Below, piece after piece: positions 9,190 through 45,802 of a stretch of DNA of 64,000 nucleotides. The notes beneath the pieces are model-generated. The model made no database searches, was not told where the DNA came from, and worked only from the letters and a program-made list of their open reading frames with translations. Each line of letters starts with the position of its first letter. Within the stretch, counting starts at the first letter, position 1. The stretch comes from Mariluticola halotolerans (GTDB lineage Bacteria; Pseudomonadota; Alphaproteobacteria; Rhizobiales; Devosiaceae). The position numbers were made by a program, and so were the translations under genes. The stretch is from NCBI RefSeq assembly GCF_021611515.1, contig NZ_CP090960.1, positions 1,612,001 through 1,676,000 of the forward strand, given 5' to 3'.

Positions 9190-10125
9190 ATGCAAACTGA
9201 AGATCGCAATCCCGGCAGCGTTGCCGATGCAGTGCGCGGCAACTGGGTGGACCGGTTCGCGCCGGATTGGGCGAAACCCTATTTGCGCCTTGCGCGGCTT
9301 GATCGCCCGATCGGGTTTCAGCTTTTGTTCTGGCCTTGCGCCTATTCGGTGGGGCTTGCGGCTGTTGCCCGGCCCAACACGGCCTTTAACTGGCTTTCGA
9401 TTCTGCTGTTCCTGATCGGGGCCATCGCCATGCGGGGTGCGGGCTGCACCTTTAACGACATTGTTGACCGGGACATTGACGACAAGGTTGCGCGCACCCG
9501 GTTGCGGCCCATCCCCAGCGGGCAGGTATCCACCAAACAGGCCATTGCCTTTCTGGTGCTGCAGGCGCTCGTCGGGCTGGCGGTGCTGGTGCAGTTCAAC
9601 ACATTCACAATCTGGCTGGGCGTTGCCTCTTTGGCGCTGGTGGCCATTTATCCGTTCATGAAACGGGTGACCTACTGGCCGCAATTCTTTTTGGGTCTCG
9701 CCTTCTCTTATGGCGCGCTGATGGGCTGGGCTTCGGAATTCGGGGCGCTGTTTCAGCCGCCCATTCTGCTTTATCTCGGCTGCATCTGCTGGGTGATCGG
9801 CTATGACACAATTTATGCGCTGCAGGATGTGGAAGACGATGCGCTGATCGGCGTCAAATCCACTGCGCGCCTGTTTGGCGAGAATACGCGGGCCATGGTG
9901 GCTGTGTTTTATGCCGCTGGATTTGCCCTTTGGGTCTGGGCCGGCCTGTCGGCGAGCGCCGGCACGGCATTTCTTGTGGCCATGGTTTTGCCGGCCGCCA
10001 TTCTGATCTGGCAGGTGGCAACGCTTGACCCCAAGGATGGTGACAACTGCCTGAAACGGTTCAAGGCCAACCACTATACGGGGCTGGCCTTCACCTTGGC
10101 ATTATGGCTCGCCTGGAAGTTTTAA
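9190..10125 (+). CDS. ubiA: 4-hydroxybenzoate polyprenyltransferase UbiA
   Basis: Membrane enzyme that attaches the polyprenyl tail to 4-hydroxybenzoate in ubiquinone synthesis. The 311-residue protein has the substrate motif LDRPIGFQLLFWPC, the first Asp-rich site NDIVDRDIDDKVARTR near residues 93-108, and the second around QDVEDDALIGVKSTA. About eight membrane helices are predicted. A TAGGAG ribosome site precedes the start. Confidence 0.97.
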   Translation: MQTEDRNPGSVADAVRGNWVDRFAPDWAKPYLRLARLDRPIGFQLLFWPCAYSVGLAAVARPNTAFNWLSILLFLIGAIAMRGAGCTFNDIVDRDIDDKVARTRLRPIPSGQVSTKQAIAFLVLQALVGLAVLVQFNTFTIWLGVASLALVAIYPFMKRVTYWPQFFLGLAFSYGALMGWASEFGALFQPPILLYLGCICWVIGYDTIYALQDVEDDALIGVKSTARLFGENTRAMVAVFYAAGFALWVWAGLSASAGTAFLVAMVLPAAILIWQVATLDPKDGDNCLKRFKANHYTGLAFTLALWLAWKF

Positions 10126-10901: not shown

Positions 10902-11747
10902 ATGGCTGAAAACGCTGTTCATGACATTGAGGCCGACCTGCAACTTTTGCGTTCGAACGCGGTGGCAGCGGGGATCATTGCGGCCGGTTATTTCCGCCGC
11001 GAGCTCAAATCCTGGACCAAGGAAAACGCCTCCCCGGTTACCGAGGCGGACTTTCTCGTCGACAAGTTCTTAATGCAGTCGCTGCGCGCTGCGCGGCCCG
11101 GCTATGGCTGGTTGAGCGAGGAAAGCGTTGATGACCAGTCCCGGCTCAAGGCAGAGCGCGTTTTCATTATCGATCCGATTGATGGCACCCGCGCCTTCAT
11201 GCGCGGCGATGATTGCTGGGCCATCTCGCTGGCAGTGGTGGAGAATGGCCACCCGATTGCCGGTGTGATTTATGCCCCGGCGCGCGATGAACTTTATCAT
11301 GCCTCAAAAGGCGGCGGTGCCTTTTTGAACGGAGAGAAGCTGACCCCGGATCTCACCCTCCAGCGCCCCGCCATCATTCCCGCGCCCGGTGCGGTGCATA
11401 CGGAACTGAAAGCGGATGGTCTCGATTATGTACGCGGCGACCATTATCCCTCGCTGGCCTATCGGCTGGTGCAGGTGGCGACAGGCCGGGTGGATGCGGC
11501 GGTGGCCCGGCGCGGCGCGCAGGACTGGGACATTGCCGGGGCGGCCATCATTCTTTCCGAATGCGGGATCAATTTCGAGGATGTGTGCTGCGGCACCCCG
11601 CTCTATAATCGTGCTGACACGCGGCACAGCGCCCTTGCGGCCATGGCTGACGAAACGCTAAAACCTTTGGTTCATGGTGCCTTGTTGCGGGTGTATGGAT
11701 GCCCCGACACGTGTACCGATGACCTCAATCTGGAGCAGCGAAGCTGA
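10902..11747 (+). CDS. Inositol monophosphatase-family phosphatase (CysQ-like 3'(2'),5'-bisphosphate nucleotidase)
   Basis: A 281-residue member of the Li-sensitive, Mg-dependent sugar/nucleotide phosphatase family. Metal-binding motifs are visible: the acidic SEES (near residue 71), IDPIDGTRAF (near 90) and WDIAGAAIIL (near 210). CysQ members remove the 3' phosphate of PAP from sulfate assimilation, while SuhB/IMP members act on inositol phosphate; sequence alone does not separate them here. The stop overlaps the DUF4170 start by one base (TGATG), so the two are translationally coupled. Confidence 0.9.
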   Translation: MAENAVHDIEADLQLLRSNAVAAGIIAAGYFRRELKSWTKENASPVTEADFLVDKFLMQSLRAARPGYGWLSEESVDDQSRLKAERVFIIDPIDGTRAFMRGDDCWAISLAVVENGHPIAGVIYAPARDELYHASKGGGAFLNGEKLTPDLTLQRPAIIPAPGAVHTELKADGLDYVRGDHYPSLAYRLVQVATGRVDAAVARRGAQDWDIAGAAIILSECGINFEDVCCGTPLYNRADTRHSALAAMADETLKPLVHGALLRVYGCPDTCTDDLNLEQRS

Positions 11748-11980
11748 TGACAAGCGCACAAGAGAAACAACTCCTGCATCTGGTGATCGGCGGGGAACTC
11801 TCCGATCTCGACAATATCCAGTTCACCGACCTTGATGCCGTGGACATTGTTGGCGTCTATCCGAACTACAAAGCGGCCTATGATGTGTGGAAGACCAAGG
11901 CACAGATGACGGTCGACAATGCGCATATGCGCTATTTCATCGTGCATTTGCACCGCTTGATGGACCCGGACGAAGACTAG
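11747..11980 (+). CDS. DUF4170 protein
   Basis: A 77-residue acidic protein (MTSAQEKQLLHLVIGGEL...LHRLMDPDED). The pattern ELSDLDNIQFTDLDAVDIVG and the middle YKAAYDVWKTKAQ are characteristic of DUF4170, found in alphaproteobacteria next to the CysQ-like phosphatase. Function unknown. It is coupled to the upstream gene by a one-base overlap. A 15-base-stem hairpin follows. Confidence 0.88.
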   Translation: MTSAQEKQLLHLVIGGELSDLDNIQFTDLDAVDIVGVYPNYKAAYDVWKTKAQMTVDNAHMRYFIVHLHRLMDPDED

Positions 11981-12071: not shown

Positions 12072-13214
12072 TCAGGCACTCAAATCAGCAACCACCGCCT
12101 GCATGGTGCCCGGCCCGCCAAGGCGGGACCGGCCGATAGTGCCGAGCCGAACGGTTTCAGCGGGGTCGGCCAGCAGACGCTGCAAAGCGCTGGCCAGTGC
12201 GGTTGCATCGGGCGGGGTGAGAATGCGGGCTTCGCCCATTAGCGCCTGTTCATCGGCCATGCGTTTGGGGCGGTTGTCGGCGCGGTTGAATGTGATGACC
12301 GGTTTGCCAAGGCCCAGCGCCTGCTGGGTGGCCGTGCCCGCCTGGGACAGAACAATGTCGCTGCCAACGATCAGGTTGCCGATGGCCCCGGTGGCCAGAT
12401 GCAGTACCAGACCATCGCCTTTGAGCTGACCCAGATCGGCGAGGGTTTCATCGCGGGGTGGTTCATGCACGAGGCCGGTGGCACGGGCTAATTCGGCGAC
12501 ATCAATGCCGCCCGCGACAGCGACAAAAATATCGGGCACCAGATCCGCTGGCAATTGCCGCAAGGCCGCTACCTGAAGTTTCAGGCTTTCGCCGGTCCAC
12601 ACGCGGCTGCCGGGTAACAGGGCCACGGCACGTGCGTGCTGGCGTTTGCTGGCCATTTCGTAGGTACCATAAGGCACGGTATCGAGCATGATATTGCCCG
12701 CGCTCATGGCCAGAATACCCTTGTCGCTCAGGCCTTTGGACAGCATGGTGTCGCGGCAATAGGTTTTTTTGGCAATAGAGCCGATCAGCCAGCGCTCGGG
12801 CGCGGAATAGCTATGGGCATAGCCGGATTTGAAGACGTCGAGATAGATATCGATGGGCAGACCCGCCAGCCTGCACAACAGGGGCGTTACCGCATCCCCG
12901 ACCGCAACCACCTTGTCATAGTGCCCCCGCGCCTGCCGCAGAAACCGGATTGCGGGCCAGATGCTTTTTAGCATGCCGCCCTTAACATCGCGGGCAACCG
13001 AGCCGGACGTGTGCCGCCAGCCTTCGCTGGGCATGAAGGAACGCGGGCCGACTATGGGGCATAGGTTTGTATAGGCATTGCCGGCGCCGACCACGGGATA
13101 GGCCTCGGCGGCGATGTTTTCCGGCAGCTTGGCGATAATCGCGGCCGCTATGGAATCCTCGCCATTGCCATTGGCGATAAACAAGATGCGTTGGGGGCCG
13201 CCTGACATTGCCAA
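12072..13214 (-). CDS. Lipid-A-disaccharide synthase-related protein (LpxB-like GT-B fold)
   Basis: A 380-residue cytosolic protein. The start motif ILFIANGNGEDSIAAAI and the C-terminal SQAGTATQQALGLGKPVITF (about residues 300-320) match the family described from cyanobacteria as lipid-A-disaccharide synthase-related (TIGR03492, from memory). The GTAT element corresponds to the UDP-sugar site of LpxB and MurG-like enzymes, so a glycosyltransferase role is likely; the acceptor is unknown. It is three bases downstream of the DUF2093 gene and probably co-transcribed. In other Hyphomicrobiales, waaA and lpxK usually lie between DUF4170 and DUF2093; neither is here. Confidence 0.78.
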   Translation of the reverse strand: MAMSGGPQRILFIANGNGEDSIAAAIIAKLPENIAAEAYPVVGAGNAYTNLCPIVGPRSFMPSEGWRHTSGSVARDVKGGMLKSIWPAIRFLRQARGHYDKVVAVGDAVTPLLCRLAGLPIDIYLDVFKSGYAHSYSAPERWLIGSIAKKTYCRDTMLSKGLSDKGILAMSAGNIMLDTVPYGTYEMASKRQHARAVALLPGSRVWTGESLKLQVAALRQLPADLVPDIFVAVAGGIDVAELARATGLVHEPPRDETLADLGQLKGDGLVLHLATGAIGNLIVGSDIVLSQAGTATQQALGLGKPVITFNRADNRPKRMADEQALMGEARILTPPDATALASALQRLLADPAETVRLGTIGRSRLGGPGTMQAVVADLSA

Positions 13215-13217
13215 TGC

Positions 13218-13436
13218 TTATCTGTCGGCGTAGCGCATATAGGCTTCGTAGGCGGCATCGACATCGATATAGGCTTCCTGCCGGTCGACATTCCAGTATT
13301 TCAGGTCATCGATCAGGATCGGCTTGCCGGTTATGGCGCAGCGCACAAAGCTGCCGGGCTGAATGATGTCGAAATCGGCATCGCCATAGCGCAGCTTGGC
13401 TTCGGAAGGTGCAAAATTGGGATCGAGAATGTTCAT
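13218..13436 (-). CDS. DUF2093 protein
   Basis: A 72-residue protein. The core LRYGDADFDIIQPGSFVRCA followed by ITGKPI and LKYWNVDRQEAY defines DUF2093, a small alphaproteobacterial family of unknown function often found near xseA or mutL. It lies 64 bases downstream of xseA and 3 bases upstream of the LpxB-related gene, all on the minus strand. Confidence 0.9.
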   Translation of the reverse strand: MNILDPNFAPSEAKLRYGDADFDIIQPGSFVRCAITGKPILIDDLKYWNVDRQEAYIDVDAAYEAYMRYADR

Positions 13437-13500: not shown

Positions 13501-14931
13501 TCAAAAGAGCGTCGTCTGGGGATCGTCCGGATTTGCCTTTGGCGGCGTTGATTTCGCCGGTTTGGGTTTGGCCGGGGCGCCGCTGGTATCGCCGACCATG
13601 ACGCCGACCTTGCCATCGGCAAATTCAAGTGTCAGCCCGTCGCCCGGCTGCAAGCCATCCGCCGCGCGCACCAGAGCGCCTTTGGTATCGGTGACCAGCG
13701 CGAAGCCGCGCCGCAGCGCCGATTTGTGGCTGAGACTGTCGAGCAGTTTGGCAATGCCGTTGAGGTGGCGCTGCCGGTCGGCCAGCGAGCGGGTCACCGC
13801 ATTGGGGATGCGCCCGGTTAATTGATCAAGGTGGCGATGCGCGTCGCCGGTGCGCTGGCGCAACAGGGTTGCGGAAAGGCGCGGGGCGATATTGGCCAGA
13901 TGCAGGGCCTTTTTCTGCCGGGCGGCGCGCAGGCCGCCGGAGAGGCGCTCCCCGGCGAAATCGAGGCGCTGGCGGGCATTGGCGACCAGATCGAGCGGGC
14001 GCGGCAGCCCGGCACTGGCAGCACGCAACCGGTCGCGATAGGAGGCGGCGACACGGCGGGTGGCGGCGCGCTGGCGGGTGCCCAAATCCTCGACATAGGC
14101 AATCAGTTCGGCGCGGACGGGCACGGCCATTTCAGCGGCCCCTGTCGGGGTGGGCGCGCGCCGGTCGGCGGCATAATCGACAAGGGTGATATCGGTTTCG
14201 TGACCCACCGCAGAGATCACCGGAATATCGCTTTCGGCGACGGCGCGGACCACGGCTTCCTCGTTAAAGCCCCAAAGATCTTCAACCGAACCACCGCCAC
14301 GGGCAACGATGATCAGATCAGGCCGGGCAATTGGCCCGCCCGCTTGCAACGCATTGAAACCGCGTACGGCGGCGGCGACTTCGGGGGCGCAGCTATCGCC
14401 CTGCACACGCACGGGCCAGACAATCACATGGGTTGGAAACCGGTCATCGAGCCGGTGCAGGATATCGCGGATCACCGCACCGGTTGGTGACGTGACAACG
14501 CCGATCACCTGGGGGAGATAGGGCAGTTCCTTTTTGCGGTCCTTGTCGAACAGGCCTTCGGCCAGCAATTTCTTGCGGCGCTCCTCGAGCAGGGCCATGA
14601 GCGCGCCGACACCGGCGGGTTCGACATTTTCGACAATGATCTGGTATTTTGACTGGCCGGGAAAGGTGGTCAGCTTGCCGGTGACAATGACTTCCATGCC
14701 CTGTTCGGGCTGGATGCGCCAGCGGGCGACAACGCCCTTCCAGGCGACGGCGGACATGACGGCGTTCTCGTCTTTCAGGTCGAAATAAAGATGGCCGGAG
14801 CCGGGCCGCGACAGCCGTCCCACCTCGCCCCGCACGCGGACATGGCCGAACTGGTCTTCAATCGTGCTCTTTACGGCCGAGGAAATTTCCGAGACGGTAA
14901 ATTCATGGGCATTTGTGGGTGCATCACTCAT
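13501..14931 (-). CDS. xseA: Exodeoxyribonuclease VII large subunit
   Basis: Catalytic subunit of exonuclease VII, which degrades single-stranded DNA to oligonucleotides together with XseB. The 476-residue protein has an N-terminal OB fold ([20 protein letters not shown]), the XseA catalytic domain ([56 protein letters not shown]) and a long Arg/Ala-rich helical region. A Pro/Lys-rich tail ends [10 protein letters not shown]. It is divergent from purD. Confidence 0.97.
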
Positions 14932-40977: not shown

Positions 40978-41029
40978 TTACTAATTTCAGGCACACTGCA
41001 CTCTTTGACGAGTTTGGGTGCTGGATATT

Positions 41030-42853
41030 ATGCGCGATTTTTTAAAACTTGTGGGCAGGTTTGCCCGTAACGAAGATGGTGCCTTTCTTATCCTGTTCGG
41101 GGTTATGGCCATTGTTCTGGTCGCCCTGTCCGGCGCTGTCGTTGATTATGTGATGCTGGAACAGGCGCGCAACCGCGCCCAGGTGGCGCTCGATGCCGCC
41201 GCGCTTTCCCTGCAGCCCAAAATTTATGAAAAGACCGACGCCGAGCTGAAAACGTTGATACGTGCGCTTGTCGACCAACAGATCGACGATGACCGCATCG
41301 GCGCGGTCATTGAGTCGGTGGACACAGATGATGAAGAGGGTTCGCTGCTGGTGCAGGCCCGCCTGACGGTGCCCACGACCTTTGTTGCCTTGCTCGGCTT
41401 TGAGAATTTCACCCCTGCCGTTGTCTCCAAAGCGACCCGCAAGAAGCTGTTTCTTGAAGTGGCCATGGTGCTCGACAATTCAGGATCGATGGATGACGAA
41501 AGCCGGATGGTCAATCTAAAGAAGGCTGCCAAAAGCGCCACCGATATTCTTTACGAATACAAAAACCCCGCTGACGGCGGTGACGGCAGTGTTTCCGACA
41601 GCACCTATATCAGCGTCGTACCCTTCAATTTCTGGGTCAATATCGGGTCATCCAACCGGAATGCGGCATGGATGGATACAGGCGGGCTTTCCGAGGCGTC
41701 CCAGGACAATTTTGACAATGATGATAATTCATCCAACACGTTCAACGGTCCGGCCCCGCGCTTTTCGTATTACGACGGCATCAACAATGTCTCCTGGGCC
41801 GGCTGCGTGGAGGCGCGCAAACAGCCCTATGATGCTGATGATACCGTCCCGAATGCTGCCACGCCGGATACGTTGTTTATCCCCGCGTTCCAGCCGGACG
41901 AGCCGGATACAGGCGGCAGCTATTACAATAATTACATCAGTGACGATCCGCAGAGCTGCCAGCCTTACGGCACCTGCACCTGGAAGCGGGTTTATTACAA
42001 CTGCAATTCCAGCGGCAACAATTGCAACAGTTCGAACAATTATTACTCCGGCACAAGCGAGGATGGCAGAACGAATACCGACAACAGCGCCTGTTCCTGC
42101 TCCGGGGAAACCACGACCACGGTCAGCGACAATACCTACCGCTATTATGGTGAGTACCGGCGTGAGCGCATTCGCACCTGCTTCACACGGATTTCATTCG
42201 TATCGAAACTGAGCGACCGCGAACGCCAGGAACGCATTTGCAAATACAATAATGTATCCGCTAACACATCCGGCTCGAACCGCTTTGGCCCGAATGCTGC
42301 CTGCGTATCAACACCGCTCCTGCCGCTGACCAATACCCGCGCTTCGGTGATCAGCACCATCGATAGCATGGTGTCCAACGGTGCCACCAATATTCATCAG
42401 GGTGCGATTTGGGGTTTCCATGCACTTTCACCCACCGCGCCGCTTGAAGAGGGCCGGAATTATGAAACCGCGACCTACAAGGTCATGATCCTGATGACGG
42501 ATGGCCAGAACACCTATTACAGCAATAACAGCGATTCCTCCCGGCTCAACGGCGCCTATTACTATGCGCCTTACGGGTTCCCGGTGAACCGGCGCATGGG
42601 TGACGAATCCAAGTCAGATGGTGAAATGGAAGACCTTGTCGACGCGCGCCTGCTCAAGACGTGCGAGAACATGAAGGCCGCCGGCATCGATATTTTCACG
42701 ATCGGCCTGAAGCCGCCCGAAAGCGTGAAATCCATGCTGACCAGCTGTGCCAAGGACGCAACGCAAGCGTTCTTCCCCACGAATGCATCCGAGTTGACGG
42801 GTGTGTTTGAAGAAATCGCGCTGCAATTGGCAGATTTGCGACTGGCACAATAA
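41030..42853 (+). CDS. TadG-like pilus-assembly protein with VWA domain
   Basis: A 607-residue protein. The N-terminus has the TadE/TadG pattern: basic residues, then NEDGAFLILFGVMAIVLVAL and a membrane helix, so it anchors in the inner membrane facing the periplasm. A von Willebrand A domain follows, with the metal site DNSGSM near residue 149 and TDGQ later (near residue 495). Between them is an unusual stretch (about residues 300-380) rich in Asn, Ser, Tyr and Cys. Start could be the GTG at 41018. No other tad genes are next to it; TadG proteins assist Flp pilus or surface assembly. Confidence 0.88.
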   Translation: MRDFLKLVGRFARNEDGAFLILFGVMAIVLVALSGAVVDYVMLEQARNRAQVALDAAALSLQPKIYEKTDAELKTLIRALVDQQIDDDRIGAVIESVDTDDEEGSLLVQARLTVPTTFVALLGFENFTPAVVSKATRKKLFLEVAMVLDNSGSMDDESRMVNLKKAAKSATDILYEYKNPADGGDGSVSDSTYISVVPFNFWVNIGSSNRNAAWMDTGGLSEASQDNFDNDDNSSNTFNGPAPRFSYYDGINNVSWAGCVEARKQPYDADDTVPNAATPDTLFIPAFQPDEPDTGGSYYNNYISDDPQSCQPYGTCTWKRVYYNCNSSGNNCNSSNNYYSGTSEDGRTNTDNSACSCSGETTTTVSDNTYRYYGEYRRERIRTCFTRISFVSKLSDRERQERICKYNNVSANTSGSNRFGPNAACVSTPLLPLTNTRASVISTIDSMVSNGATNIHQGAIWGFHALSPTAPLEEGRNYETATYKVMILMTDGQNTYYSNNSDSSRLNGAYYYAPYGFPVNRRMGDESKSDGEMEDLVDARLLKTCENMKAAGIDIFTIGLKPPESVKSMLTSCAKDATQAFFPTNASELTGVFEEIALQLADLRLAQ

Positions 42854-43017: not shown

Positions 43018-43207
43018 GGCCGAATTTGCGGTTTGCGTCCAGGGATCGCCTCCACCCCCTCCGAACTTAACCATGCAGGCGATTGTTTGCCCGATACAGG
43101 CTCTCCCCGGTGGACCGCGCCTCATCCACACGATATTGAGGATTTGTAAAAATCTTGCCGCAATTTGTGCCAGAATGGCACATTGGCGCGTGGTGTTGTG
43201 AGTAGTG

Positions 43208-45802
43208 ATGGGTATCAACGGGGTCAATTCTGAGGCTAGGCGACGCGCCATCGGTTATTTGACCGATCCTCGTCCGGCGTGGCTGTGGACAGCCAATGGC
43301 GATGAATTGTTGTGGCGCAACCCGGCGGCAAAACTTTTCCGCGCCAAGTCCAAGCGCCATGGGCTCAAACTCGCCCCGCTGGCGGTGCCGATCAAAGGTC
43401 AGGTTTCCCGCATTATCCGGCTGGGGGCCACTGGCCGCGCTTCACTGTCTCGCATTCAGTTTCTGGCCGGCAGCAAGCCGGTTTCCGCAACCTGCACCTG
43501 CACCCCCCTGCCGCTTGATGACGGCCGGGTGGCCTTGCTGGTTGTGGCCGTAGACCGCATCGACAAGGAATTGATGGCCGAGCACGGCCTGAGCGCTGAA
43601 ATTCTCGATGATGTTTTTGACACCAATACCGGGTTTGTCATCAACGATGCCAAGGGCAATGTGCTGGCGGCGTCTGCCAGTGCCGCACATTTTGACAGCG
43701 CGCGTGACGAGGCCATCAGCCTGAGCGCCGGCCCGAACGCCGCCAAAGTGGTTCTGTTTGCCGCCGATCAGCTTGACGTGTCAGACGAAAGCCCCGTGTC
43801 TGAGATTGCGCCGGAACCGGATACCGACACGGTGCCCGCACGCGATCTTGGTTCCCTGCTCGACAGGCTGGCGGACGACGAGGCCCTTTTCACCCCGCTC
43901 GGCCCCGAGGATGATGTCATTCCTGAAGGCATTTCCAGCCCGGTGACGTTCTCACCTGCGCCAGACGGTGCTGTACCTGTGCAAGAGCGCGCCGAAGATG
44001 CAGCATCTGATGCCGTCGAAGACGACGACACAATTGTTGATGAAACCATATCCACCCCGGATGCCGATCAGCCGGACGATCAAAGCGATATAGATCCGCC
44101 GGTGGAAGCGACCCTGCCTGAGGTGGCCGAAAGCCTTTGGCGGATTGTGGGCCGGGGGTTTGAACCCGAGACGGTTGCCGACGACACCCCAGAACCGGAA
44201 AGCGCGCCCGCGCCTGCCGCTGAAGATGTCAGCTCGCGCTATAATTTCGAGGAATTATCGCGGATATTGTCCGACCGTGTTGGCCGCGAGCGTCAGGCCA
44301 GCGAATCCGGCACGCCCGACGTGGTGCAATTGCCGCCCAGCAAGGCGCCATCGCAGCAAAACAGCCTCGTCAATCTCAGCGATGAAAGCCTGGTGCTCAA
44401 CCGGTTGCCGCTGGGTTTGCTGATTTTCCGCGATCAGCAAATCCTTTTTGCCAACCGCGCCCTGACCGAACTGGTCGGCTATCCCGACAGTGCCAGCCTG
44501 CGCGCTGTGGGCATGGGGGCGATTTTCCCCTCGCCCTCCCAGACAGGTGAAAACGCCGGCCCGGTGAACCATCTGGCCCATCGCGACGGCAGCCAGGTGC
44601 CGGTTGCGGCCCGTCTGCAATCTGTCACATGGCAGGGTGGCCCCGCCTTCATGCTCACCGCCCGGCACGAATTGCCACCGGTTGGCCCGGAAATGGCGGT
44701 CCGCAGTTTTGCCGAATCCCTTGCCGCGGTCGATGGCAGCGGCTTTCTGGAAACCAGCCGCGCGGGGATTATTTCCAGCGTGTCGGGACAGGCCGCAGCC
44801 CTTCTCGGGCGCACGCCGGAAGTGCTTATTGGCCGTCCGCTCGTTTTGATGGCGGGCCATAAAGAAGCGGCGAACCTGCGCGAATTTCTGGAAAAGCCCG
44901 CCCGGTTTGCCGGCACAGCGCGCCCCAGCCTGATCATGCGCGGCATCGATCCGACGCTGGAAATCATTCTGTTTGCCGAAGGTCAGGCGGGCATTGTCAC
45001 CGGTTATTTTGGTCTGGTGCGCCGTGCCGCCGCCGTGAGCGACAGCCCGGACCGCGCCTTTGCGCCCGCCCCGGTTGAACCGGCGCATGAGAACGGGATT
45101 GATCCTTCCATTCTCAGCCGCCTCAGCCGTGGTGTGCGGCGGCCGCTCAATACGATTATCGGTTTTGCCGAGCTGATCCGCAGCCATGCATTCGGCCAGA
45201 TCGAGAATGAGCGCTACACAGAATATGCGCGCGACATCAAATTTGCCGGGCAGGAAATTGTCGGCGTTATTGATGAGCTCGAAGATTTCGTGCGCCTGCA
45301 CACAGGAGAGTATCAGGCAGCTCCCGTCGATTTTGATCTCGGGCTTTTGCTCGATAAATGCATGGTGCGGGTGCGCGGTGCGGCCGGCGCGGCGCGGGTT
45401 CTCGTGCGCAGCGCCATTTCCGAACGCCTGCCGCATATCCGTGCCGACGAAGCCTCCCTTGAGCAAGCCATTCTCAACCTGCTTGCCAGCGCCATCGACC
45501 AGACCCCACAGGGCGGACAGGTCGTGCTTTCGGCGCAACGCGAGGAAGATGGCGCGGTGGCCATTCACGTGCGCGACAGCGGCAGTTCGACCAATGACCT
45601 CTCAGAGCGCTTTGTTGTCTTCCGTGACGGGCTGGACCCCTCCGGTGCCGTGCGCCGTCCGGTGCATTCAAGCGTGGGGCTGGCGCTGACGCGCTCGCTG
45701 CTTGCGGTCAACACCTGCACGCTCACAATTGATCCCGCCGTGGGTGCCGGCACGCTGCTCAGCCTCGTCATTCCAGCCGACATGGCGGTGGATCGCGACT
45801 GA
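43208..45802 (+). CDS. Large PAS histidine-kinase-like protein with lost catalytic residues
   Basis: An 864-residue soluble protein (ATG at 43208; a GTG precedes it directly). An N-terminal sensor-like region (to about 170) is followed by an acidic, Asp/Glu/Pro-rich linker (about 190-400), one or two PAS-like segments (420-600), then DHp and ATPase domains. The DHp segment reads LSRGVRRPLNTIIGFAEL where kinases have LSHELRTPLNAIIGF, so the phospho-His (near residue 641) is Arg. The N-box reads ILNLLASAIDQTP, with Ser for Asn, and the G1 box is DSGSSTND instead of DxGxG. It resembles PdhS/DivL/PleC-type kinases in its DHp but should not phosphorylate itself. Confidence 0.85.
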   Translation: MGINGVNSEARRRAIGYLTDPRPAWLWTANGDELLWRNPAAKLFRAKSKRHGLKLAPLAVPIKGQVSRIIRLGATGRASLSRIQFLAGSKPVSATCTCTPLPLDDGRVALLVVAVDRIDKELMAEHGLSAEILDDVFDTNTGFVINDAKGNVLAASASAAHFDSARDEAISLSAGPNAAKVVLFAADQLDVSDESPVSEIAPEPDTDTVPARDLGSLLDRLADDEALFTPLGPEDDVIPEGISSPVTFSPAPDGAVPVQERAEDAASDAVEDDDTIVDETISTPDADQPDDQSDIDPPVEATLPEVAESLWRIVGRGFEPETVADDTPEPESAPAPAAEDVSSRYNFEELSRILSDRVGRERQASESGTPDVVQLPPSKAPSQQNSLVNLSDESLVLNRLPLGLLIFRDQQILFANRALTELVGYPDSASLRAVGMGAIFPSPSQTGENAGPVNHLAHRDGSQVPVAARLQSVTWQGGPAFMLTARHELPPVGPEMAVRSFAESLAAVDGSGFLETSRAGIISSVSGQAAALLGRTPEVLIGRPLVLMAGHKEAANLREFLEKPARFAGTARPSLIMRGIDPTLEIILFAEGQAGIVTGYFGLVRRAAAVSDSPDRAFAPAPVEPAHENGIDPSILSRLSRGVRRPLNTIIGFAELIRSHAFGQIENERYTEYARDIKFAGQEIVGVIDELEDFVRLHTGEYQAAPVDFDLGLLLDKCMVRVRGAAGAARVLVRSAISERLPHIRADEASLEQAILNLLASAIDQTPQGGQVVLSAQREEDGAVAIHVRDSGSSTNDLSERFVVFRDGLDPSGAVRRPVHSSVGLALTRSLLAVNTCTLTIDPAVGAGTLLSLVIPADMAVDRD

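Follow-up and report, generated by a model that had tools for sequence, protein, structure and literature searches.

The subject of this report is a gene in a stretch of 64,000 nucleotides from Mariluticola halotolerans (Devosiaceae; NCBI RefSeq assembly GCF_021611515.1, contig NZ_CP090960.1, positions 1,612,001 to 1,676,000), hereafter the window. The gene encodes a relative of the lipid-A-disaccharide synthase LpxB, is a divergent full-length relative of the family TIGR03492 and stands in the place where other families of the order carry waaA and lpxK. Its product probably glycosylates a lipid A that is unphosphorylated and free of 3-deoxy-D-manno-octulosonic acid (Kdo), in a shortened route to lipopolysaccharide (LPS), a role whose acceptor and step we infer. 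The observations that carry this reading are the gene content, the chromosomal slot, the mutual exclusion with WaaA, the linkage, in other phyla, to lpx, msbA and lpt genes, the predicted fold and the residues of the nucleotide site.

Lipid A genes and the waaA-lpxK slot

The genome of M. halotolerans (3.45 Mb in 2 contigs, 99.97% complete) was searched as a whole with protein profiles. LpxC, LpxB and LptD were found; lpxB lies in a cluster of the order bamA-lpxD-fabZ-lpxA-lpxI-lpxB, whose LpxI and LpxB score below the NCBIfam cut-offs and whose LpxB clears that of Pfam. No match to WaaA (PF04413), LpxK (PF02606) or KdsA (TIGR01362) was obtained anywhere in the genome. With this gene content synthesis can proceed as far as the disaccharide 1-phosphate, and LptD is kept, while the 4' kinase and the Kdo genes are gone. 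An alteration of lipid A at the gene level is well supported.

The original prediction, made from the sequence alone, had taken waaA and lpxK to be missing and had named an altered lipid A, its loss or a different envelope glycolipid as possible consequences. The absence of both genes is confirmed for the whole genome, where a check for a set of lpxB, lpxK and waaA at another place turned up lpxB only. Altered lipid A agrees with the gene content, a loss of lipid A is rejected because LpxC, the lpxD-lpxA-lpxI-lpxB cluster and LptD are all present, and a different glycolipid stands as a rival, which is weighed below. A relocated WaaA or LpxK is rejected as well, since the whole-genome searches were empty. 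An assembly gap does not explain the absence, given the completeness, the two contigs and the lack of LpxK in all 61 genomes of the family that were searched.

The surroundings of the gene had been predicted as a CysQ-like gene, DUF4170 and DUF2093, with waaA and lpxK as the normal occupants of the slot. The profiles confirm the neighbours (Table 1), and relatives confirm the occupants. The classical order DUF4170-DUF374-waaA-lpxK-DUF2093 is seen in two loci from other families, L160, in which DUF374 and waaA form a single frame, and L161, in which 1.8 kb separate lpxK from DUF2093. Among the lpxK-bearing genomes of other families lpxK lies less than 5 kb from DUF2093 in 28 of 32; in the remaining four it is 100 kb off DUF2093 or on another contig.

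The TIGR03492-like gene adjoins DUF2093 in 35 of the 36 Devosiaceae that carry it. In the exception (G034) the slot is empty and the gene is located elsewhere. A scan for homologues kept 80 of 276 matching stretches, 55 of which are close loci (at least 38% identity, titled as Devosiaceae genera or unclassified relatives) and 25 of which lie outside the Devosiaceae group. In 54 of the 55 close loci (all but L071) the TIGR03492-like gene touches or overlaps DUF2093. DUF374, the usual neighbour of waaA, stands beside it in eight according to BLAST (two checked with Pfam), and a frame matching the Pfam O-antigen ligase is next to it in the slot in six. These neighbours fit an in-place replacement of waaA-lpxK.

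Distribution in Devosiaceae and in other phyla

The survey comprised 101 genomes, 61 from Devosiaceae (M. halotolerans included) and 40 from as many other families of the order; the Devosiaceae sample includes incomplete genomes, such as G007 (71%), G008 (60%) and G047 (74%). LpxC occurs in all 61 Devosiaceae and in 34 of the 40 others, LptD in all 61 and in 38 of 40. LpxK above the cut-off is found in none of the 61 Devosiaceae, two of which have matches near 20 bits, under the 27-bit cut-off, and in 32 of the 40 other genomes. WaaA is present in 8/61 and 32/40, KdsA in the identical eight Devosiaceae and in 38/40. The TIGR03492-like gene (E <= 1e-35) is carried by 36/61 Devosiaceae and 0/40 others. 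Weak matches to TIGR03492 in 14 further genomes (E 5e-6 to 9e-4, mostly to profile positions ~180-260) were left uncounted because the weak match of the M. halotolerans genome falls in lpxB, which is presumed to apply to the other genomes as well. LpxC without LpxK was seen in two of the 34 LpxC-bearing genomes of other families, both fragmented (510 and 770 contigs). The named relatives of the window protein are mostly from Devosia, and also from Pelagibacterium, Maritalea and Cucumibacter.

WaaA and the TIGR03492-like gene never occur together in the 61 Devosiaceae: none of the eight WaaA genomes carries the latter. The chance of no overlap between 8 and 36 genomes among 61 would be 3.7e-4 if genomes were independent, which they are not. 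Inside the genus g11 it is 0.003 under the same assumption, which those genomes do not satisfy either. Of the 11 genomes of this genus, four have the TIGR03492-like gene and seven have WaaA and KdsA. The slot was read in four of the latter (G025, G031, G042 and G050) and is occupied there by a Kdo cassette. Between DUF4170 and DUF2093 the loci L144, L145, L147 and L149 contain waaA, a SIS-CBS protein (kdsD), a cytidylyltransferase (kdsB), kdsA and other envelope genes; single genomes with the cassette also hold an O-antigen ligase or LpxL there. The genome profile search found no LpxK in the g11 genomes with the cassette, and as none of the 61 Devosiaceae has LpxK above the cut-off, even the WaaA-bearing members of the family are without it. 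This suggests that Kdo is placed on a lipid A without 4' phosphate in these organisms. A further WaaA genome, G003, has nothing but a DUF374 gene in the slot, its waaA being on another contig.

Two genomes, G006 and G017, carry two tandem TIGR03492-like copies. Those of G006 (L150, 4864-7171 (-)) are in the slot and share 68% and 46% identity with the window protein; because they separate in the tree, two specificities are possible. Among the genomes with neither WaaA nor a TIGR03492-like gene, G020 has a 640-base gap in the slot without a frame of at least 230 amino acids, G026 has a contig end, and in G009 the slot is filled by a member of a family of ~400 amino acids. The proteins of this family (L132:3114-4316 (-), L153:4009-5214 (-) and L071:8593-9798 (-)) have no Pfam match at E <= 0.001, and a 37% identical homologue stands by the relocated TIGR03492-like gene of G034, Pelagibacterium sediminicola. 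Its members may provide another substitute enzyme at this step.

Another pattern was seen in six other families of the order (G064, G073, G081, G095, G096 and G097; loci L155-L159): LptD is present, and LpxC, LpxK and WaaA were not found in these genomes. KdsA is kept in five of the six, and DUF4170 adjoins DUF2093 in G097. These genomes may represent outer membranes that lack lipid A and keep LptD.

The strongest new point is the tie of TIGR03492-like genes to LPS pathways without LpxK across phyla. The 25 distant loci are titled as Bacillota/Clostridia, Halanaerobiales, Margulisiibacteriota, Saganbacteria, WOR-1, Atribacteria, Spirochaetes, Aminicenantes, Eremiobacterota, proteobacteria and other bacteria. 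LpxC was found in 24 of their 25 genomes (not in G117) and LpxK in two (G104 and G109), so that 22 have LpxC without LpxK. Genes of the types lpx, msbA, lptB or lptF/G lie in the fetched flanks of 16 of the 25 loci. The order lpxC-fabZ-lpxA-lpxI-lpxB-LpxB paralogue-msbA-TIGR03492-GT2-lptB-lptF/G is found in L111, L112, L118 and L130, whose four genomes gave no LpxK in the searches. In L112, where the run was checked with profiles, the gene of glycosyltransferase family 2 (GT2) is on the other strand, ~1 kb lies between msbA and the TIGR03492 gene, and MsbA is just under its cut-off. The end of msbA is less than 50 bases from the TIGR03492-like gene or overlaps it in eight loci. In L105 and L106 the TIGR03492-like gene converges on an lpxB-lpxA-fabZ-lpxC run with one frame of ~200 amino acids between. 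No kept stretch is titled as a cyanobacterium, and a search of plasmids was empty. The control genome of Synechococcus elongatus matches TIGR03492, LpxB and LpxC, and neither LpxK nor WaaA.

A third clade of LpxB-like proteins, designated here by its 'NSPGE' motif, is encoded near the TIGR03492-like gene in 11 of the 25 distant loci (L107, L108, L111, L112, L114, L118, L122, L123, L127, L129 and L130), ten of which also have msbA. The member from L112 matches PF02684 above the cut-off (82 bits) and TIGR00215 under it.

The protein and its neighbours

The window protein matches the NCBIfam profile TIGR03492 over positions 1-392 of 396 (E 8.8e-53, 179.4 bits). The original prediction of an LpxB-related gene in this place holds. 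TIGR03492 is described as 'lipid-A-disaccharide synthase-related protein', a hypothetical equivalog without an assigned reaction. The LpxB profiles PF02684 and TIGR00215 gave no match to the window protein at E <= 0.1, nor did it match PF04413 or PF02606. In a tree built without cyanobacterial members the TIGR03492 clade (support 100/100), which includes the window protein and the cut-off-passing proteins of L105 (272 bits) and L112 (311 bits), is apart from the LpxB clade (100/99) and from the second LpxB-like group. The Devosiaceae form their own branch (99/96), with the proteins of the proteobacterial metagenome-assembled genomes (MAGs) at L110 and L119 beside it. That the window gene is LpxB itself is rejected, as the true LpxB is encoded elsewhere in the genome and falls in a separate clade.

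The AlphaFold2 model of the protein (pLDDT 92.9, pTM 0.89) has the fold of type B glycosyltransferases (GT-B). Its nearest folds in the PDB are UDP-GlcNAc 2-epimerases with Z up to ~24, while MurG, MGD1 and other transferases reach Z ~20; LpxB is matched in structure with a Foldseek E of 2.8e-9. Profile-profile comparison with six LpxB sequences gave E 4.3e-22 across 348 columns.

Residue roles in LpxB were taken from a table in PMC5785501, and the Escherichia coli numbering was transferred by alignment and spacing. D107 aligns with an Asp that is invariant in the six LpxB and is taken as the E. coli base D98. Residues P201-R204 align with the PGSR motif, and T294 and Q298 with T277 and the ribose-binding E281. 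Neither E15 nor S17 of LpxB is conserved at the aligned places of the TIGR03492-like proteins. In 52 sequences the residues I13, N15, G16, G18, E19, D20, G65, D76, G106, D107, R154, L162, G173, N174, P201, G202, T294, Q298, G303, P305, G366 and G369 are invariant. As far as can be judged from these residues, the catalytic and nucleotide sites look active, with a Gln that is specific to the family.

Coordinates of the gene and its neighbours are given in Table 1. Translation of the gene from TTG at 13214 gives the length listed there, and translation from ATG at 13208 gives 378 amino acids. The gene is the third of an apparent run xseA-DUF2093-window gene and starts 3 bases past the stop codon of DUF2093. 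The name xseA is our own assignment, presumed from the sequence. The matches of the CysQ-like protein to TIGR01331 and TIGR02067 are under their cut-offs, and the ubiA gene is a conserved outer flank without a part in the mechanism proposed below.

Table 1. Genes in and around the waaA-lpxK slot of the window
Feature	Coordinates	Strand	Evidence and remarks
UbiA 4-hydroxybenzoate octaprenyltransferase	9190..10125	+	TIGR01474, 356 bits, above cut-off
Inositol monophosphatase / CysQ-like protein, conserved left flank	10902..11747	+	PF00459, E 3.8e-44
DUF4170 protein, left border of slot	11747..11980	+	PF13773, E 1.8e-23
TIGR03492-like GT-B glycosyltransferase gene (predicted)	12072..13214	-	380 amino acids; open reading frame, profile, model
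DUF2093 protein, right border of slot	13218..13436	-	PF09866, E 1.5e-21
Exodeoxyribonuclease VII large subunit (xseA, presumed)	13501..14931	-	Open reading frame; same place in relatives' loci, used as anchor flank

Elsewhere in the window the frames 41018-42853 (+) and 43205-45802 (+), of 611 and 865 amino acids, have no Pfam match at E <= 1e-10.

Proposed role, alternatives and known systems

The assembly of LPS is commonly held to include LpxK and the transfer of Kdo. In their absence the product of LpxB keeps a free 4' hydroxyl (no LpxK) and a free 6' hydroxyl (no WaaA). In the proposed route LpxA, LpxC, LpxD, LpxI and LpxB would form the acylated glucosamine disaccharide 1-phosphate, and the addition of the 4' phosphate by LpxK and the synthesis and transfer of Kdo by KdsA and WaaA would have dropped out in M. 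halotolerans. The window protein, a predicted nucleotide-sugar-dependent GT-B glycosyltransferase in the former place of waaA-lpxK, would then most likely add the first sugar other than Kdo to the disaccharide, or to the early core, on the inner side of the inner membrane. The product would be an anchor without phosphorylation or Kdo that carries the remainder of the saccharide, and the lipid would presumably leave via LptD. Transfer of the first sugar onto lipid A is proposed because of the LPS chemistry of cyanobacteria, described below, and the gene pattern of S. elongatus.

Several observations weigh against this role. The window protein misses the curated TIGR03492 cut-off of 219.2 bits. 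Seventeen of the 61 Devosiaceae have neither a TIGR03492-like gene nor WaaA, which means that not every relative with LpxK-less lipid A requires the former, and in 10 of the 13 such genomes whose slot was read it is empty. The flank scan that found LPS genes at distant loci, run identically on the 55 Devosiaceae-type loci as a control for chance matches, found lpx, msbA or lpt genes in none of them. Nine of the 25 distant loci likewise have no LPS gene in the fetched DNA, including L110 and L119, the nearest outside relatives of the Devosiaceae, though their genomes (G106 and G115) do have LpxC. One distant genome is without LpxC and two have LpxK, and as most of the 25 are MAGs of unstated completeness, in which part of the DNA may be missing, and come from the 80 stretches kept of 276, the absence of LpxK weighs less there than in Devosiaceae. 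Two control genomes also disagree: Deinobacterium chartae matches TIGR03492 and neither LpxC nor LpxB, and Bacteroides ihuae matches it despite having LpxC, LpxK and WaaA. Two of the three TIGR03492-matching controls, not named individually, are above the cut-off, and the match of B. ihuae may be a weak cross-match of LpxB.

Part of this evidence would fit the main rival, an enzyme that glycosylates another envelope lipid to give a glycolipid of either membrane, with the slot being incidental or reflecting a general switch of envelope lipids. D. chartae, the 17 Devosiaceae with neither gene and the lack of LPS genes near the 55 Devosiaceae-type loci are all compatible with it. Devosia nitraria is reported to contain 3-hydroxy C18:0 (2.5%) and a large amount of an unidentified glycolipid (PMC5644702); the fatty acid is consistent with lipid A, the glycolipid with a different lipid product. 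This alternative is nevertheless unlikely, in view of the runs of lpx, msbA and lpt genes in other phyla, the presence of LpxC in all but one of the distant carriers and the exclusion of WaaA from the same slot.

It is improbable that the protein is a second enzyme of the disaccharide synthase type, one that transfers a further acylated amino sugar from UDP-diacylglucosamine onto lipid X or the disaccharide. The full-length homology and the similar layout of the active site would suit such an activity, but the clade is separate from LpxB, an invariant Gln replaces the ribose-binding Glu, and a true LpxB is encoded elsewhere in the genome. A WecB-fold UDP-sugar 2-epimerase, which would make a precursor rather than transfer a sugar, is suggested by the best structural matches, a comparison of folds only, and by weak matches to PF02350 and TIGR00236. 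We consider it very improbable: these scores (13.4 bits against a cut-off of 30.6 and 13.1 against 210) are far too low, the comparison with LpxB profiles is strong over nearly the whole length, and transferases approach the same Z values. Least credible of all is a passenger gene without a role in lipid A, its arrival unrelated to the loss of WaaA-LpxK, for although the empty slots imply that loss and gain need not be one event, the gene is retained in 36 of 61 Devosiaceae, pairs with LpxC outside the family and has active-site residues invariant in 52 sequences from several phyla.

Glycosylation of an unphosphorylated, Kdo-free lipid A is thus preferred for the window enzyme. More tentatively, and with the balance leaning somewhat against it, TIGR03492-type enzymes in general might form the next step of an LPS route independent of LpxK and Kdo, by glycosylating the LpxB product directly, and this route might be common to Cyanobacteria, several diderm Bacillota, Margulisbacteria-type lineages, Spirochaetes and Devosiaceae. 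If so, LpxK-WaaA would be one of two widespread continuations from LpxB, and Devosiaceae would have switched between the two within the Alphaproteobacteria. The family, which keeps LpxC and LptD and has no LpxK and mostly no Kdo genes, offers a cultivable test of what lipid A requires. The window gene may well encode the enzyme that adds the first core sugar in Kdo-free LPS. That enzyme is missing from the picture in cyanobacteria too, where lipid A bears galacturonic acid and glucose in the positions of phosphate and Kdo. The gene also provides a testable annotation for the 'hypothetical' family TIGR03492. In these soil and marine bacteria the loss of the genes that complete lipid A, with an uncharacterised enzyme in their place in many genomes, hints at another and scarcely explored route to an outer membrane.

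Among open-licence papers, judged by listing, none was found that links TIGR03492-like genes to LPS without LpxK; none was found on the family name TIGR03492 or on Devosia with lpxK, and none by title on the LPS of Devosia.

With the TIGR03492 family the window protein shares the full-length profile match and the clade; the Devosiaceae differ in their score below the cut-off and in their own branch. LpxB (PF02684 / TIGR00215), which we take to be glycosyltransferase family GT19, has in common with it the GT-B fold, the PGSR pyrophosphate motif and the Thr and Asp positions of the active site. They differ in that the window protein has NGxGED where LpxB has GExSGD, and Gln at the position of E281. 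WaaA and LpxK, which normally act after LpxB, share the chromosomal slot with the window gene, whose product has the GT-B fold and contains neither PF04413 nor PF02606.

For diderm Firmicutes a cluster lpxACDIBK/waaM/waaA/kdsABCD, with lpxK and waaA included, has been published (PMC5007114). L111, L112, L118 and L130 show a similar lpx-msbA-lpt run, which differs in containing the TIGR03492-like gene and another LpxB-like gene; no LpxK turned up in these four genomes. A frame that we presume to be DUF3084-like occurs in L111, L112 and L130.

A Kdo-free lipid A route of four enzymes, encoded by lpxA, C, D and B, is described for Cyanobacteria and Dictyoglomi (PMC3087551). The LPS of marine Synechococcus carries galacturonic acid at C4' and a glucose chain at C6', with neither phosphate nor Kdo (PMC4515613). 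M. halotolerans agrees with the cyanobacterial type in its genes, having LpxA, LpxC, LpxD and LpxB and lacking LpxK and WaaA. Devosiaceae and the cyanobacterial route are alike in having no LpxK, WaaA or Kdo genes, apart from the 8/61 Devosiaceae that keep WaaA and KdsA. The Devosiaceae differ in that their pattern appears as a loss inside an order with LpxK in 32 of the 40 other families sampled, and in the retention of LpxI and of an LptD that PF04453 matches.
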